A DNA stretch of 64,000 nt from Roseimaritima ulvae (GCF_008065135.1 NZ_CP042914.1:7297404-7361403); one strand, 5' to 3'; numbered from the stretch's first letter, positions 38,621 through 45,813 are shown. The notes: generated from the sequence alone by a model not told the origin. A program made the numbers and translations.

Positions 38621-40999
38621 CTACAGGTAATGGAACTTCAGCAACCCCATCAACTGGGGCACGCGGCCGGCATCGGGGCGTTCGATGGCGGTGGTCAGCG
38701 ACTGGATGATCGCCGCGGCGGCGGGCAATTTCGGTTCCGCCTGGGCGAGCGCCTGTTCGGCGGCTTCGCGAAAATGTTGGTCATCAAAACAACTGTAGGC
38801 GATCGTTCCGATGAAGGCCGAGAACAATTGCAACGTCGCGCCGCAGCGGCGGCTGGCCAGCGCCAACAGGGCTCGGTCAAACCACCGCGATGCGTCCTGT
38901 GGTTCTTTGGCTTCCCACAACACATAGGCTCGATAAAGGGCGATATCCGGCCAGGGTTCGCCTTCCCGCATCGCCCAATCTTCGCGACGGTCCAAATACT
39001 TCTCGGTCACCTCCGCCAACGGCGACTGACGCCCAAAGGCCGCCATCGCCCGCAGCAACAAGCGATGCCGATAGCGATTCGTTTTGGCTTGCTTATGCGA
39101 TGCCAATTCCTCGACCAGCACCTGCGGATCGCCGACCGCATCGCTCAGCAGAGCATACCAATCTTCCGCGCCGGCATCGATCGCGTTGTGGGCGCGGTAG
39201 CTGGCGGGAATCTGCCGCCAACCGGCCAGACTGGGCAGCGCCGCTTCGGCGGCTTCCATCAATTGCACAGCCCGCTGCAATTGGTTTTCGGCTTCCTCAA
39301 AATTTTCCAGTGCGGCCTGGTAGCGTCCCAAGCTGGTCAGCACTTTGGCGCGCAAGAACCGTGGTAAGAACGGGAACCGCACATCGTCCGCCCAGTCTTC
39401 GGCGATCAGTACGGCTTGGTCGAATTCCAATTGCTCGGCCCACACGCCGGCCAGATGCAAATCGCATTCGACCGCCAAATCGGGGACGTCTTCCAAGGCC
39501 TGTTCACGAATCGTTTCGTACTCTTCGATCAGGGCCGTCACGCGGTGCGGGTCGCCGGCGAAGGTGGCGCTTTGAAACTGCACGGCGGTGGATAACAACC
39601 GAGCCCGAATGCCCTGCTGCTCGGGCGTGATGGATACGATCCGCCGCACCACCTCGACGGCTTTTTCCAGTTTCCGCAGATCTCGGCTGCGGCGCTGATA
39701 TCGGCGGTCGAGCGTTTCCAATAGACGCAGCTGCAGATCGCGACGGTCGACCAAGCGGCGGCGGACATCGTCGACCAACAATTCGCCCATCCGCGTCTGC
39801 CGCAATTCGACAGCCAAATCCATAAACGTTTCCACGTCGCCGTTTTCTTCCAAGTGCTCCAGCCGTTTCAGCCGCTGCACCAAGTCCATGGTCAGCGGCA
39901 CGTAGCCGGGCAACTGTTTGAATTTGGCGATCTGTCCCAGTTCGCGATTCGACTTGGTGCTCTCCCTCGCCAGGTAAGCCAATTGATCGGCGTAGGCGAT
40001 GTAACTATCGATGCGATCCAGGTCGTACCAAGCGACTTCTTTGATGTCGTAACGGGCGAACCGCTGGGTGCCGCGGAGCAGCCCTTGGTAGAAATCGGTT
40101 TGGTCGAAGCCATGCGGATGACGTGAATCGTGATCCATCCAAATCCGCAACTGCGCCGGCGTGCCATCGACCGGCAACAACCACCCCAACACGATTTGAA
40201 TGCACGCCTGCAGTAGGTCGTCGTAGTGTTGGCTGGCTTGGCCGCGTCGATCGTCCAAGCGGATCGGCATGATGAACGGCAGGGCCCGTGGACAACGAAA
40301 CAACTGTTCCAAGATTTCGTAGGCTTCCAGCGTCGCGTAGCGGTGATCCTTGGCAGCCGGCAACACGCTGAAGTCCGGCCGCGCGCCTTGCCAGACGACG
40401 CCGGCGATCACGCCTTCGCTACCTCGCTTGCCGGTGTGAGGCCAGGTTTCGTCGATGCAAATCAGAAAGTCATGGCTGTCACGTCCCCAATCGGTGACAC
40501 TGGGCATTTCCAGTCGAGCGCGTTCGAGCCGCTGCTGAGCGACGCGGCTCCGTGTCATCTTTTCGGTTGGCTTGGGACGAACCCGAGCGGTCTTGGCGGG
40601 CGTTTTTGCCGGCGTCCCATTCGACTTACCGTTGCCGTTGCCATTGCTCTTGCGCGACGTCGGTTCGCGGCGGGCTACGTTGGCTTCGAAAGCCTTCATC
40701 AACACGTCGGGAACGCCGGCCGAACCGAGCACGCGGCGGACACGATGAAAGGCCCGATCGGGTGTGCGAAAAAACGGATTCAGTAGTTTCCCCAACTCTA
40801 CCTGAGCCTTCTGCAGGGCCACGGTTTGAGCTTCGTTGGGCAACCAATCCATCAAAGGTTTGCAGTCCAGCCCCAAACCGCTGATATCCTCAAGCACCTG
40901 CTTTAGATGCGGGTCCAAGCGGTGCGCGCGACCGCTTTTGATCAATCGTGGGACAATCCGCTGCCAAGCTTTCCACCAAGCGGGCGACTTCGCTTTCAT
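38621..40999 (-). CDS. DUF3800-like (RNase H-fold) domain fused to a helical-repeat region
   Basis: 792 residues, three parts. Residues 1-110 are helical; 112-165 form a basic linker (SNGNGNGKSNGTPAKTPAKT). Residues ~175-345 look like a DUF3800 domain: FLICIDETWPHTG (Asp183-Glu184), GVIAGVVW, a helix with YDDLLQACIQIVLG, LRIWMDHDSRH (Asp289, Asp291), and DSYIAYADQLAYLAR (Asp331, Asp338) in place of the usual 'S-x-x-x-x-x-Q-x-A-D-x-x-A'. Acidic residues at these points are what an RNase H-type nuclease needs. Residues ~380-790 are helical, TPR-like repeats. ATG at 40999 overlaps the NhaC stop (ATGA). Function is inferred: possibly a nuclease with a sensing or scaffold tail. Confidence 0.65.
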   Translation of the reverse strand: MKAKSPAWWKAWQRIVPRLIKSGRAHRLDPHLKQVLEDISGLGLDCKPLMDWLPNEAQTVALQKAQVELGKLLNPFFRTPDRAFHRVRRVLGSAGVPDVLMKAFEANVARREPTSRKSNGNGNGKSNGTPAKTPAKTARVRPKPTEKMTRSRVAQQRLERARLEMPSVTDWGRDSHDFLICIDETWPHTGKRGSEGVIAGVVWQGARPDFSVLPAAKDHRYATLEAYEILEQLFRCPRALPFIMPIRLDDRRGQASQHYDDLLQACIQIVLGWLLPVDGTPAQLRIWMDHDSRHPHGFDQTDFYQGLLRGTQRFARYDIKEVAWYDLDRIDSYIAYADQLAYLARESTKSNRELGQIAKFKQLPGYVPLTMDLVQRLKRLEHLEENGDVETFMDLAVELRQTRMGELLVDDVRRRLVDRRDLQLRLLETLDRRYQRRSRDLRKLEKAVEVVRRIVSITPEQQGIRARLLSTAVQFQSATFAGDPHRVTALIEEYETIREQALEDVPDLAVECDLHLAGVWAEQLEFDQAVLIAEDWADDVRFPFLPRFLRAKVLTSLGRYQAALENFEEAENQLQRAVQLMEAAEAALPSLAGWRQIPASYRAHNAIDAGAEDWYALLSDAVGDPQVLVEELASHKQAKTNRYRHRLLLRAMAAFGRQSPLAEVTEKYLDRREDWAMREGEPWPDIALYRAYVLWEAKEPQDASRWFDRALLALASRRCGATLQLFSAFIGTIAYSCFDDQHFREAAEQALAQAEPKLPAAAAIIQSLTTAIERPDAGRVPQLMGLLKFHYL

Positions 41000-42645
41000 C
41001 GACTTGGTTCCTCAACCCGGCGGCCCAGCACTCGCACGCTGGCGTACAACACCACGGCGCCTGCCACGATACTGAGCCAGGGCGACAGGCCCCACGCCGC
41101 CGGCAACGTCCCCAATAGAATCGCCACCGCGGCGGCCAGCGCCGCATAAGGCATTTGCGTTCGCACATGCTCCACGTGGTCACAACCGCAAGCCCGACTG
41201 GACAGCACTGTGGTATCGGAAATCGGCGAACAATGGTCCCCGAAAATAGCTCCGGCCAACACGCTACCGGTGGTGGCCGCAAGCAGACTCGCCTGGGAAT
41301 CCGCCACTGCCATCTGCAAGCCCAGTTGCACAGCCAACGGGGTCAGCAGGGCCATCGTGCCCCAGCTGGTTCCGGTTGAAAACGCCACCAGGGAAGCGAC
41401 CAAGAAAACCAACGTCGGCAACAGTACCCCCGGCAAACGATCGCTCAGCACTTCGCCCAGGTAGCCGCCGGTATTCAATTGATCTTCGGCCGTCATCGAG
41501 GACAGGGCCCAGGCCAACCACAGCACCAACATGGCCGGCATGATCTGCCAAGCCCCACGCACGACGCCCCACAACAAAGTTCGCAACGTGGCAAGCTGCG
41601 GGTGCGACAGAAAGCCCATCACCAGAGCCGTCAGCAAACCGACTTTTCCCGCCGTGGTTAACGCCTGATAAGAATCAGCGTTGCCCAGGATCTCGCCCCA
41701 ACCCTGCAGCCCCGTCGGTCGCTCGCCGGGTTGGTCGGCCACCGCTTCCAGCCCCGTCGACACCAACACCCCGGCGACGGTGGCCACGCACACCACGACC
41801 GGCAACAAAGCGGCGAACCAGACCCACAAACCAGCATCGTCCTCGGCGGCAGATTTGTCGGAGGCGGCTGATTTGTCGGGGCTGGCTGAGTTGTTGGGGG
41901 CGGCTGAGTTGCCGGCGGTTGCGCCGGGCTGTTCCAAAGCCGCGCGTTCGGCTCGCAACATGGGCCCGAAATCCCGCCCGCTGCGAGCGATAATAAACAC
42001 CAGCAGCAAAGCAAAGATGGGATAGAACCGATAGGCGATCGATTGCACAAATAATTCGAACGCGGTGACACTCGAATCCGGCGGCAGCCCTTCGCCGATC
42101 AAACTCACCTCGGTCGCCACCCAAGTACTGACCAATGCCAACCCGGCCACCGGCGCGGCGGTCGAATCGACCAGATAAGCCAACTTCGCACGCGAGATTC
42201 GCAGCGTATCACAGACGCTCCGCATCGTGCCGCCGAGCAACAGGGTGTTGGCGTAGTCGTCGAAAAAAATTCCCAGCCCCAAGCCGGCGACCAGCGTTTG
42301 CCCGCCTCGTCGGCCGGAAGCGCGAGCGGCCAACTGCCGCATCAAAGCCTGCATCGAGCGACTGGCCTCCAGCACCCCGATCATGGCTCCTAACAACAGG
42401 CTGAACTGCAGCACGCTGATGTGGTCGGCATCGAACAGCGATTGATAGATGTGGTGCCACAGAAATTGGGCTCCGCGGACGATGCCGCTGCGCTGCGGTT
42501 CGTCGGCGGCCAGCGGCAGTTTCCAGGCCAACAACGCGGCTCCCACCACCACCGCCAAGCCCAACGAGGCGATCACACGACGGGTCACAATGGCCAGTAT
42601 AATGGCGACCATCGACGGCAATAGACTGAGCAACCCGAATGACAC
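40996..42645 (-). CDS. NhaC-family Na+/H+ antiporter
   Basis: 549 residues with about 11-12 membrane helices. Family motifs: GLGIFFDDYANTLLLGGTMR, YLVDSTAAPVAGLALVSTWV, FSTGTSWGTMALLTPL and GAIFGDHCSPISDTTVLSS, all typical of the Na_H_antiporter (PF03553) group that includes NhaC-type antiporters. A hydrophilic Ala/Asn/Ser-rich loop near residues 245-270 (NSAAPNNSASPDKSAASDKS) is an unusual insert. The start is GTG at 42645 without a good ribosome binding site. The 3' end overlaps the DUF3800-like gene by four bases, so the two form an operon. It should exchange sodium for protons across the inner membrane. Confidence 0.92.
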   Translation of the reverse strand: MSFGLLSLLPSMVAIILAIVTRRVIASLGLAVVVGAALLAWKLPLAADEPQRSGIVRGAQFLWHHIYQSLFDADHISVLQFSLLLGAMIGVLEASRSMQALMRQLAARASGRRGGQTLVAGLGLGIFFDDYANTLLLGGTMRSVCDTLRISRAKLAYLVDSTAAPVAGLALVSTWVATEVSLIGEGLPPDSSVTAFELFVQSIAYRFYPIFALLLVFIIARSGRDFGPMLRAERAALEQPGATAGNSAAPNNSASPDKSAASDKSAAEDDAGLWVWFAALLPVVVCVATVAGVLVSTGLEAVADQPGERPTGLQGWGEILGNADSYQALTTAGKVGLLTALVMGFLSHPQLATLRTLLWGVVRGAWQIMPAMLVLWLAWALSSMTAEDQLNTGGYLGEVLSDRLPGVLLPTLVFLVASLVAFSTGTSWGTMALLTPLAVQLGLQMAVADSQASLLAATTGSVLAGAIFGDHCSPISDTTVLSSRACGCDHVEHVRTQMPYAALAAAVAILLGTLPAAWGLSPWLSIVAGAVVLYASVRVLGRRVEEPSR

Positions 42646-42775
42646 GGCGACGTACAGCGTTGAAGAAAGGGGCAGGCAGTGAAAGCGGTGTTGACAGTCT
42701 AACAGCCAAACGCCGCATCGATTAGGATGCCAATCTTTCTATTCTTCCCTTCGCTACTTGGTTGGAAAAAGCACG

Positions 42776-43105
42776 ATGTCTCAATCTCCCCCCTCCAATC
42801 CCTATCAGACCACCGGCGCCGCCCCCGCAGGTCCCGTTGGCACCAAGCCCAATAATTATCTGGTGCAGTCGATCCTGGTGACGCTGTGTTGCTGTTTGCC
42901 GCTGGGCATCGTGGCGATCATCTTTGCCGCTCAAGTCGATTCCAAGTGGAACTCCGGAGATCACGCGGGAGCGGTCGCGGCGTCGGAAAACGCCAAGAAG
43001 TGGAGCATGATCGCGTTGGTTCTAGGGATCATCGCCAATATCGGAGTGGTCATCCTGCAAGTCGTGGCAGGCGTCGCGGCGCAGCAACAGGGGGGTGGGT
43101 TCTGA
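42776..43105 (+). CDS. CD225/dispanin-family small membrane protein
   Basis: 109 residues from ATG at 42776 (GGAAAAAG upstream; an in-frame TTG at 42758 is less likely). A short Pro/Asn-rich N-terminus is followed by two membrane segments: LVQSILVTLCCCLPLGIVAI with a Cys cluster, then WSMIALVLGIIANIGVVILQ, joined by a small loop (VDSKWNSGDHAGAVAASENA). This is the CD225/IFITM layout. It ends in QQQGGGF and stops at 43103-43105 within a G-rich stretch that overlaps the next reading frame. Function in bacteria is unknown. Confidence 0.88.
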   Translation: MSQSPPSNPYQTTGAAPAGPVGTKPNNYLVQSILVTLCCCLPLGIVAIIFAAQVDSKWNSGDHAGAVAASENAKKWSMIALVLGIIANIGVVILQVVAGVAAQQQGGGF

Positions 43106-43503
43106 GCGTTTCGTCTGGGCCGCGGCGCAGCCTGATCGCCGCAGCCGTCGTACTGTTGGTGGGTTCGGGCGTGTTGTTATTATCGCGCTACGAGCCCACG
43201 GCCGATTCGTGGTACCCCAAGTGCATGCTGCATCAATGGACGGGCATCCATTGCCCCGGATGTGGCGCCACGCGGGCCTGCCGCGCGTTGGTTCAAGGCG
43301 ATCTATGGGCGGCCATACGCTTCAACCCGTTGTTGATCGTGGGCGGCCCGATAATCGCGGCCAGTTTGTGGTGGCAACGGCGGCGGGAACGTCGCGGCGG
43401 CCCCTATGCTCCGTGGTTATCCTGGACGCTGTGCATCGTGGTGATCGCCTTCTTCATCCTCCGCAACCTACCCACCCCGGGCAGCAGCCCCCTGGCGCCG
43501 TAA
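43102..43503 (+). CDS. DUF2752-family membrane protein (start unclear, possible frameshift product)
   Basis: About 133 residues. A first membrane helix (LIAAAVVLLVGSGVLLLS) is followed by the DUF2752 signature HCPGCGATRACRALVQGD and FNPLLIV, then a further helix (WTLCIVVIAFFIL). No ATG, GTG or TTG with a ribosome binding site lies at a sensible place: the nearest upstream start in this frame is a GTG at 42886 deep inside the CD225 gene. The choices are CTG at 43102, overlapping the CD225 stop as CTGA after GGGGGTGGG, or a -1 shift at G-GGG-GGT (43090-43096) that would fuse it to CD225. The domain call is firm; the 5' end is not. Confidence 0.7.
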   Translation: MSVSSGPRRSLIAAAVVLLVGSGVLLLSRYEPTADSWYPKCMLHQWTGIHCPGCGATRACRALVQGDLWAAIRFNPLLIVGGPIIAASLWWQRRRERRGGPYAPWLSWTLCIVVIAFFILRNLPTPGSSPLAP

Positions 43504-43660: not shown

Positions 43661-44929
43661 TTAGTCGCGGAGCCAGAAGCGGGCGGTGCAGCCGGCCGGG
43701 CCGCTGCGGAGCGTGGCGCCGCCGTGATGCAGTTTGGCGATCCGATACACGCGGCATAGTCCCAACCCCAGCCCGCGCCCGGCTTCGCGACCGCTGTAAT
43801 AGGGATCAAAAGCGTGCCGCTGAGCCTGTTCGGATAATCCCGGTCCGCTGTCGGCGACGCGAACCCACACCTTGTCGCCGCGACGGCCGCTGTCGATCAC
43901 GATCCGCCCCGCACTGCCGACCGCTTCCACCGCATTTCGCAATAAGGCGTCGATGGCATCGTGCACCATCGCCGCATCGCCAACACATGACAACTCACGG
44001 CTGCCCGCCGCTGCAGACGCCTGGGCCAAACACAGCTCAATATCCAACTCTTCGCAACGCCGGCGATACGCCGACATGACTTCGTCCACCAAGCCGCCCA
44101 CGTCGACGGTTCCCAAATTGGGTTGCGGCGGATGCGCAAAGAACATCACGTCGGAGATCATCTCGTGAGCTCGCATGGCTTGCGCGATGACCCGCTGCAG
44201 CGAAGCATGCCGCTTCGCATCCGACTCGTCGGCCTGCAACTGTTCGCTGCGGGTGACGATATTGGCCAGAGGATTATTGATTTCGTGCGTCAAGCCATAC
44301 GCAAACTGCTTCAGCGACGCCAGCTTCGCCGTCTGCAAACGATGGTCGAAGGCGGTGCGGAGCTGCCTTTCGCTGCGGACCACCGACGCCAAACGCGATA
44401 GTGGAAGCGTGCCGTCACCGTAGCGCAGCGACAGCGCGGGCCGCTGAAGCGGCTCGGTTGGCGGGCGAAGCTGCGGCCAGGTGGCTCGCCATCGCGCGGG
44501 CACACGCGGACCGTGGATGGCTAGCCACCGCGGCGCGCTATCCATCCATTGCTCAATCGGCAAAGCCTGACAGCGTTCGGTCAACAACCGCCACTGCTGA
44601 CGGTCTTCGGCGGTGATCGTAGGAGCGTCTAACTGGCGATCCGGCTGGGCAAACAGACGCGGAGCCTGCCGCACCAACCACCGCGATAGCCGCGGCAGCG
44701 AATACCGTTTGGGAGGCGAGCGTCGTGATTGCTCGGCGCGACGCAGAACCGCATACATCAACAGCGCGGGATCGCGCTGCAAACGCTGCTCGATCGCAGC
44801 CACGTGCCGGGCGGAAGCGGCGTTGTCGGTGGGATCGAGCAAGACCGCTGCCAAACTATCCGCGGTGGTTGGCTCAAGCGGCAACCACCAGCGGCTTTGA
44901 GACCACCGCAAACACGGCAGAAACGTCAT
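43661..44929 (-). CDS. Sensor histidine kinase without obvious sensor domain
   Basis: 422 residues, no membrane segment. The N-terminal ~190 residues contain a weak helical region (ASARHVAAIEQRLQRDPALL), somewhat reminiscent of HDOD proteins, but no named sensor. The dimerisation/phosphoacceptor helix is FAYGLTHEINNPLANIVTRS with His215. ATP-binding boxes follow: an N-box in DAIDALLRNAVEAVG, DSGPGLSE and GRGLGLGLCRVYRIA. It should autophosphorylate and pass phosphate to the receiver protein encoded just before it: the upstream gene's stop TAA overlaps this ATG by one base (TAATG). The cytoplasmic location implies an internal signal. Confidence 0.92.
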   Translation of the reverse strand: MTFLPCLRWSQSRWWLPLEPTTADSLAAVLLDPTDNAASARHVAAIEQRLQRDPALLMYAVLRRAEQSRRSPPKRYSLPRLSRWLVRQAPRLFAQPDRQLDAPTITAEDRQQWRLLTERCQALPIEQWMDSAPRWLAIHGPRVPARWRATWPQLRPPTEPLQRPALSLRYGDGTLPLSRLASVVRSERQLRTAFDHRLQTAKLASLKQFAYGLTHEINNPLANIVTRSEQLQADESDAKRHASLQRVIAQAMRAHEMISDVMFFAHPPQPNLGTVDVGGLVDEVMSAYRRRCEELDIELCLAQASAAAGSRELSCVGDAAMVHDAIDALLRNAVEAVGSAGRIVIDSGRRGDKVWVRVADSGPGLSEQAQRHAFDPYYSGREAGRGLGLGLCRVYRIAKLHHGGATLRSGPAGCTARFWLRD

Positions 44930-45516
44930 TAGTTCGAAACAACGCGGTCAATTTCGACCAGGTCACAGGAGCGTAGGATCAAGTCATCGATGGCAAACGG
45001 CTTTTGCATAAAGTCATTCGCACCGGCCGTCTTGAGGCCTTCCACTTTGTCCTGTTCGACCATTCCGGAGATGCACAGGATCTTGACCATGTCCAGAGCG
45101 CTATCGCTGCGAACTCGCTGACAAACTTCTTTGCCATTGATGTCCGGCAGCATCACGTCCAAGACCACCAGGTCGGGACGGAACTCGCGGACTTGCATGC
45201 CGGCGTCGAAGCCGTTGTTGGCCGTGCGAATCTCAAACCGCCCGTCACGCTCGAAACCATCGGAGATCAGATCGACCAAGTCTTGATCGTCGTCCACCAC
45301 CAAGACCTTCTTCTTGCCGCTTTCCAGCGCGTCGGTGGGGATCCCGTTCTCCTTCATAAAGCTAAATAGCTGTTCGCGGGGGATCCGCCGAAACTTACTG
45401 CCCGGTACCCGAAATCCTCGCAACGAACCATTGTCGAAACAGCGAATGATGGTTTGCTGGCTGACCTTGCAAATCTTCGCTGCTTCGCCCGTCGTAAACA
45501 CCGTTTTGGTGGTCAT
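44929..45516 (-). CDS. Response regulator with N-terminal excisionase-type HTH and C-terminal receiver
   Basis: 195 residues from ATG at 45516 (GGAGG lies 12 bases upstream; an ATG at 45528 directly abuts it and is unlikely). Residues 5-55 are an excisionase/MerR-type helix-turn-helix (FTTGEAAKICKVSQQTIIRC, PGSKFRRIPREQL). Residues ~68-190 are a receiver domain: acidic pocket VLVVDDDQDL, phospho-acceptor Asp120 in LVVLDVMLPD, and Lys172 in FMQKPFA. The order DNA-binding-then-receiver is the reverse of common OmpR/NarL regulators. It is cotranscribed with the downstream histidine kinase and probably receives its phosphate. Target genes are unknown. Confidence 0.92.
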   Translation of the reverse strand: MTTKTVFTTGEAAKICKVSQQTIIRCFDNGSLRGFRVPGSKFRRIPREQLFSFMKENGIPTDALESGKKKVLVVDDDQDLVDLISDGFERDGRFEIRTANNGFDAGMQVREFRPDLVVLDVMLPDINGKEVCQRVRSDSALDMVKILCISGMVEQDKVEGLKTAGANDFMQKPFAIDDLILRSCDLVEIDRVVSN

Positions 45517-45813
45517 GGCAGAAATCATCCTCCCTGCTCGCGGCTTGCTTGTCCTGAAAAAAGACCGTTTAGCAAATCTCCGTTCCCCCGCACTACCCCA
45601 ATTCACAGGCAGACTGCGTGGAAACCGCAAGCAACAAGAATTCCCGCTCCTGCCTTGCTTTCCAAACTTACCAAACTTGCGGAATTATACCCAAACCCCA
45701 GAACGGGTCAAGATTGAAATTTTCGACGTAACCACAACCCACAAAAGCACTTACGCCGCAAACCGTCAATTTTCTCTAGGGTTTCTCCCGAATGGACACG
45801 TCAAGCGTTTGAC

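Follow-up and report, generated by a model that had tools for sequence, protein, structure and literature searches.

The 64,000-nt stretch of Roseimaritima ulvae DNA analysed here (NZ_CP042914.1:7297404-7361403, called the window) is part of a single-contig 8.2-Mb chromosome (G000). Directly behind an NhaC antiporter gene it carries a gene for a 792-residue protein with a predicted RNase H-fold, DUF3800-like domain and a tail of tetratricopeptide (TPR) type. We consider this protein to be probably a stand-alone, TPR-regulated RNase H-fold nuclease, an orphan relative of the accessory proteins of class 2 CRISPR systems whose gene was added behind an operon of response regulator, histidine kinase and NhaC (RR-HK-NhaC). 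The evidence, all of it computed, consists of the predicted fold, the conserved acidic residues, the profile relationships of the domain, the CRISPR genes that lie beside the relatives and the synteny of the operon (coordinates in Table 1).

Structure prediction of the domain (AlphaFold2, AF2; residues 150-402, 14 homologues in the input) gave a model with a predicted local distance difference test score (pLDDT) of 81.8 and a predicted TM-score (pTM) of 0.83, with strands at 177-185, 195-204, 239-247, 282-289 and 317-325 and helices interleaved. Residues 170-346 are thus predicted to form an RNase H fold, the fold proposed in a preliminary description of this DNA. A Foldseek search against the PDB returned RNase HII/H2 structures as its nine best matches (prob 0.85-0.99, E from 2e-3), and the second of the viral matches was a phage DUF3800 protein (prob 0.99). 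Sequence comparison gave no meaningful match to solved structures. A first full-length AF2 model was weak (pLDDT 66) and its Foldseek output was dominated by the helical tail, with TPR and other helical-repeat proteins as the top matches.

The acidic motifs of the preliminary description (DET, DHD and D-S-Y-x-x-x-A-D) are present at the expected residues, as D183-E184-T185, D289-H290-D291 and D331-S332-Y333...A337-D338, and were borne out in part. All 14 homologues, down to about 15% identity, have D183, E184 and D338 and an acid at position 289 (D in four, E in ten), while the conservation of H290, D291 and D331 does not extend beyond Roseimaritima. That description had named two outcomes as speaking against it, the lack of a predicted RNase H fold and the lack of conservation of the acids; neither was found. 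A catalytically dead RNase H-fold scaffold, a non-cutting binder of nucleic acid or of a partner, agrees with the D instead of E at position 289 in Roseimaritima, with a catalytic activity that is only predicted, and with the catalytic rearrangement attributed to the DUF3800 fold in print (PMC10910872). All four acidic positions are kept, however, and constraint is stronger in this domain than elsewhere in the protein, and we regard a dead scaffold as unlikely.

Membership of the DUF3800 family (PF12686) is indirect and comes from profiles. The nuclease domain of the orphan clade, to which the window protein belongs, aligned with that of a Cas13-linked clade (hhalign, P=2e-4, 159 columns), which in turn aligned with DUF3800 (P=3e-4, 157 columns); with columns shuffled, 0 of 60 controls did as well. 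The chain runs through the Cas13-linked clade, and L076, a relative whose tail is of this type, passes the Pfam DUF3800 cut-off (21.4 vs 21); any assignment of the window protein to the family is indirect. The order of the acids (D-E on strand 1, an acid on strand 4, D on the last helix) and the predicted fold are likewise those of DUF3800; the Pfam model, however, has 149 positions, and the window protein is far longer and does not score against it. Fold prediction, conserved acids and profile chain together support the DUF3800-like reading given earlier. In RNase HII the catalytic set begins with adjacent D and E on strand 1, to which two acids further along the chain are added, and E. coli RnhB has VDEVG at the pair. 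The window protein resembles RNase HII/H2 in its best solved fold and in the adjacent D-E on strand 1 with two later acids, but differs in the spacing of the later acids, the TPR tail and the sequence and profile. Homology to RNase HII by sequence was rejected (hhalign against E. coli RnhB: P 0.21 for the orphan clade, 0.27 for the Cas13 clade and 0.44 for DUF3800). As profiles show no similarity to RnhB, the likeness is one of probable working and not of membership.

The 792-residue open reading frame (ORF) is a real gene, because it is under purifying selection: the ratio of non-synonymous to synonymous differences (pN/pS) was 0.30-0.37 overall among Roseimaritima proteins that share 59-71% identity. 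By region it was lowest in the RNase H domain (0.13-0.21), higher in the tail (0.31-0.36) and highest in the linker (about 0.8). The gene stands directly after NhaC in 4/4 Roseimaritima genomes, overlapping it by four bases in three (the window genome, G001 and G003) and abutting it in G002; in the window the stop and start codons share ATGA (4 nt) in the junction sequence ...AGTCGATGAAAGCG. The length of the protein, this overlap, the Lys/Asn/Gly linker (a K/N/G/P-rich stretch of low pLDDT) and the helical-repeat tail of about 400 residues, which is all-helical in the AF2 model and TPR-like by Pfam and Foldseek, all agree with the preliminary description. TPR-type models were found by Pfam in the window protein, and the tail matched PF07719 with E=4e-6, 0.1 bit short of the cut-off.

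The four Roseimaritima proteins were used as a profile, which led to distant homologues in a second Pirellulales family (f17), and that family was then searched more widely. Homologues were found at E down to 1.5e-20 over the tail, and their spread over the phylum is patchy (7/392 sampled genomes). At 10 of the 18 loci of the second family reached from the TPR-DUF3800 side alone, a co-oriented Cas13b or Cas13d gene lies no more than about 0.5 kb away. For 10/16 loci, with two loci without Cas13 (L194 and L195) not yet counted, the binomial chance tail was near 2e-28, a rough figure that ignores relatedness (L065 and L066 are near-copies). The Cas13b neighbours were identified by NCBIfam at E=1e-149 and 8e-154 and the Cas13d neighbours at 3e-157, 4e-158, 2e-149 and 2e-129. 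One locus (L064) also has cas1 (2e-82) and cas2 (3e-11), another (L059) has cas1, and CRISPR arrays occur in or beside L058, L059, L060, L063 and L064. Relatives beside Cas13b and Cas13d, and one fused to a CARF nuclease (below), support a defence background for the protein; the preliminary description, which spoke of defence in general terms, had not foreseen these relatives.

Searching from the Cas13 loci outward gave three further TPR-DUF3800 genes. One of these (L157:287-9545) lies between Cas13b and Cas13d, all three genes having the same orientation. Most Cas13 loci of the family lack the gene, although many of the contigs are short, and for this reason it looks like an optional accessory. 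The family (L100-L176) is rich in type VI systems, with Cas13d in 21/119 genomes and Cas13b in 13/119, some in several copies. In L064:6518-9378 the TPR-DUF3800 frame beside Cas13d is split into two overlapping pieces, either broken there or split by an assembly error. In L071:3427-12028 the TPR-DUF3800 protein is fused to a CARF-PD-(D/E)XK nuclease (PADLOC 1e-25); a gene near the fusion combines a reverse transcriptase with a CRISPR-associated primase-polymerase (3.6e-57), and the setting is probably type III.

A TPR plus DUF3800 protein with a predicted RNase H fold and catalytic rearrangement has been described beside a sub-branch of Cas12a2 (Altae-Tran et al. 2023, PMC10910872). Compared by description, it shares with the present proteins the two domains and the position beside an RNA-triggered class 2 effector; its partner, however, is type V, whereas the relatives found here stand beside Cas13b or Cas13d, with one CARF-PD-(D/E)XK fusion, and the window protein, itself an orphan, carries an additional domain at the N-terminus. 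DUF3800-family RNase H-fold nucleases, of the same predicted fold and family and in a type VI context, are also reported for part of the VI-F and V-A2 loci (Makarova et al. 2025, PMC12669027); the passages of that paper on VI-F and V-A2 say nothing of a link to VI-B or VI-D, of a CARF fusion or of the orphan clade. No report of a VI-B or VI-D link of TPR-DUF3800 was found in the open literature, a scope that leaves subscription papers and preprints largely outside. Because TPR-DUF3800 is published for Cas12a2 and DUF3800 for VI-F, the VI-B/VI-D linkage is an extension of known class 2 accessories.

The window protein falls in an orphan clade with L072, L073 and L183 (support 96/96), sister to the Cas13/CARF clade, and has both the DUF3800-like nuclease domain and the TPR tail, as do the class 2 accessories. 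cas1 was not found in the genome of the window and no cas gene was found in the neighbourhood of the locus; Cas13d was not found in that genome either, in a search without a responding control whose model matched 21 f17 genomes (Cas13b and Cas12a2 were not searched). With neither cas1 nor Cas13d detected, a CRISPR partner in the window's own genome was rejected. A plasmid or phage origin was likewise rejected (no tblastn match in plasmids or phages, none in viral contigs), and a search near the gene for the DUF3800 RNA motif gave chance-level matches only. The congener G001 has cas1 and a cas2-like gene behind the gene of a large protein whose start, by eye, resembles Cas9 (L193:5196-9868); this cas1 locus is unrelated to the TPR-DUF3800 locus. 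The neighbours in L072 are a STAND-type NTPase, a DarG-like macrodomain protein and HsdR. By eye, L072 and L073 also have an N-terminus similar to residues 1-110, and this helical domain is apparently specific to the orphan clade. At the other end the homologues close with a short motif (e.g. PFNFR, RFNYW, KFHYL), possibly a docking tail.

A housekeeping enzyme of the genus for RNA processing or RNase HII-like repair, unrelated to defence, would agree with the fixed chromosomal locus in 4/4 genomes under long-term purifying selection, with RNase HII as the nearest solved fold and with the missing CRISPR adaptation gene in the window's genome. The patchy distribution, the relatives in CRISPR or defence-type loci and the failure of profiles to match E. 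coli RNase HII argue against it, and we find this explanation doubtful.

The preliminary description had coupled the nuclease to the antiporter as one module. NhaC was found in 23/40 relatives but the TPR-DUF3800 gene in 4/40, all Roseimaritima, and the co-occurrence of the two genes therefore fails beyond one genus. In four other genera (L187, L189, L190 and L192) kinase, NhaC and response regulator stand together without the TPR-DUF3800 gene, with MnmG in view in three, and no homologue outside Roseimaritima among those with flanks read adjoins NhaC. The link to NhaC is thus genus-level only, and a general nuclease-antiporter module was rejected by synteny and co-occurrence. Since the RR-HK-NhaC group occurs without it in four other genera, the simplest history is that the TPR-DUF3800 gene was appended in Roseimaritima behind a pre-existing operon. 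The NhaC protein (PF03553) is an ordinary member of its family and only its downstream neighbour is unusual. A functional module within the genus, such as RNA cleavage that is coupled during infection to ion flux across the membrane, could be seen in the ATGA overlap, in a linkage kept in 4/4 genomes at 59-71% protein identity, in the patatin gene that gives a second orphan locus a membrane-acting neighbour (L073), and in the action on the membrane of CRISPR effectors such as Csx28, as described in a passage of PMC12669027. The NhaC operons of other genera that keep their HK/RR neighbours without the gene, the 23 against 4 relatives and the lack of any other homologue beside NhaC make it, in our view, quite improbable. 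In L073:4615-8637 the gene for the patatin-like phospholipase lies about 10 nt ahead of the TPR-DUF3800 gene. In the window, kinase and NhaC are separated by two plus-strand genes (42758-43503), a CD225 protein of the interferon-induced transmembrane type and a second small ORF, which are absent there in G001 and G002.

Table 1. Features of the TPR-DUF3800 locus (positions in the window)
Feature	Position	Strand	Evidence
TPR-DUF3800-like protein, 792 aa	38621..40999	-	ORF, ATG start; conserved in 4/4 Roseimaritima genomes; pN/pS 0.30-0.37
Helical/TPR tail, residues 352-792, conserved terminal [KP]F[NH][FY] motif	38624..39946	-	Pfam, AF2, Foldseek
Predicted RNase H-fold (DUF3800-like) domain, about residues 170-346	39962..40492	-	AF2, Foldseek, profile-profile
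D338, candidate metal ligand, last helix (Y-x-D)	39986..39988	-	Invariant 14/14
D289, candidate metal ligand, end of fourth strand	40133..40135	-	Acidic in all (4 D, 10 E)
D183-E184, candidate metal ligands, end of strand 1	40448..40453	-	Invariant 14/14; strand 177-185
K/N/G/P-rich linker, residues 111-147	40559..40669	-	pLDDT 30-46; variable length in alignment; pN/pS about 0.8
N-terminal helical domain, residues 1-110 (WWKAWQ...DWxP)	40670..40999	-	Alignment; helices in AF2 model
ATGA stop/start overlap, NhaC / TPR-DUF3800 gene	40996..40999	-	Junction sequence
NhaC family Na+/H+ antiporter, 549 aa	40996..42645	-	PF03553 E=3e-44
Histidine kinase of older RR-HK-NhaC operon	43661..44929	-	Pfam HisKA/HATPase_c; synteny
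Response regulator, same older operon	44929..45630	-	ORF; syntenic in other genera

Several points weigh against an orphan CRISPR-related nuclease. The nuclease activity of the window protein is a prediction from sequence and model. A Pfam scan of the protein gave no PF12686 match at E<=10, and the direct hhalign comparison of the orphan clade with DUF3800 was marginal (P 0.047, 10 columns). Global Foldseek TM-scores were modest, about 0.4 for the top matches, and for this reason the search supports the fold class of the model and not close kinship. The Cas13-linked loci are draft-genome contigs of one family and not all independent (L065 and L066 are near-identical, L058 and L059 close), and the orphan clade could differ in role from its CRISPR-linked sisters.

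With these reservations, the protein would work as a metal-dependent RNase H-fold nuclease with D183/E184, D289 and D338 as predicted ligands, followed by a TPR-like tail. We infer that the domain would cut nucleic acid, with RNA or RNA/DNA as the probable substrate, that the tail would bind a controlling partner or trigger, and that the role may be defence or stress control of RNA. The sister branches would be accessory genes of Cas13b/Cas13d systems or a CARF-nuclease fusion, the Roseimaritima gene standing without a CRISPR partner. Its transcription, and through the ATGA overlap probably its translation too, would come from the RR-HK-NhaC operon, with the antiporter as a neighbour in shared expression and not a working part.

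In a broader form, TPR-DUF3800 may be a general RNase H-fold effector or modulator placed on unrelated RNA-sensing triggers (Cas13b, Cas13d, CARF, Cas12a2), with a CRISPR-independent orphan clade that has its own trigger through the N-terminal domain and membrane-acting partners (NhaC, patatin). We hold this form only tentatively and think it rather unlikely. For the nuclease as we read it, the antiporter hypothesis is replaced by a testable one. Few helpers of type VI systems are known (Csx27, Csx28, WYL proteins), and an RNase H-fold gene beside both Cas13b and Cas13d suggests a second nuclease in the Cas13 immunity of some planctomycetes, perhaps for the handling of CRISPR RNA (crRNA) or for amplified degradation of RNA or RNA/DNA. 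The orphan clade, to which the Roseimaritima protein belongs, would offer a way to study this module apart from CRISPR.

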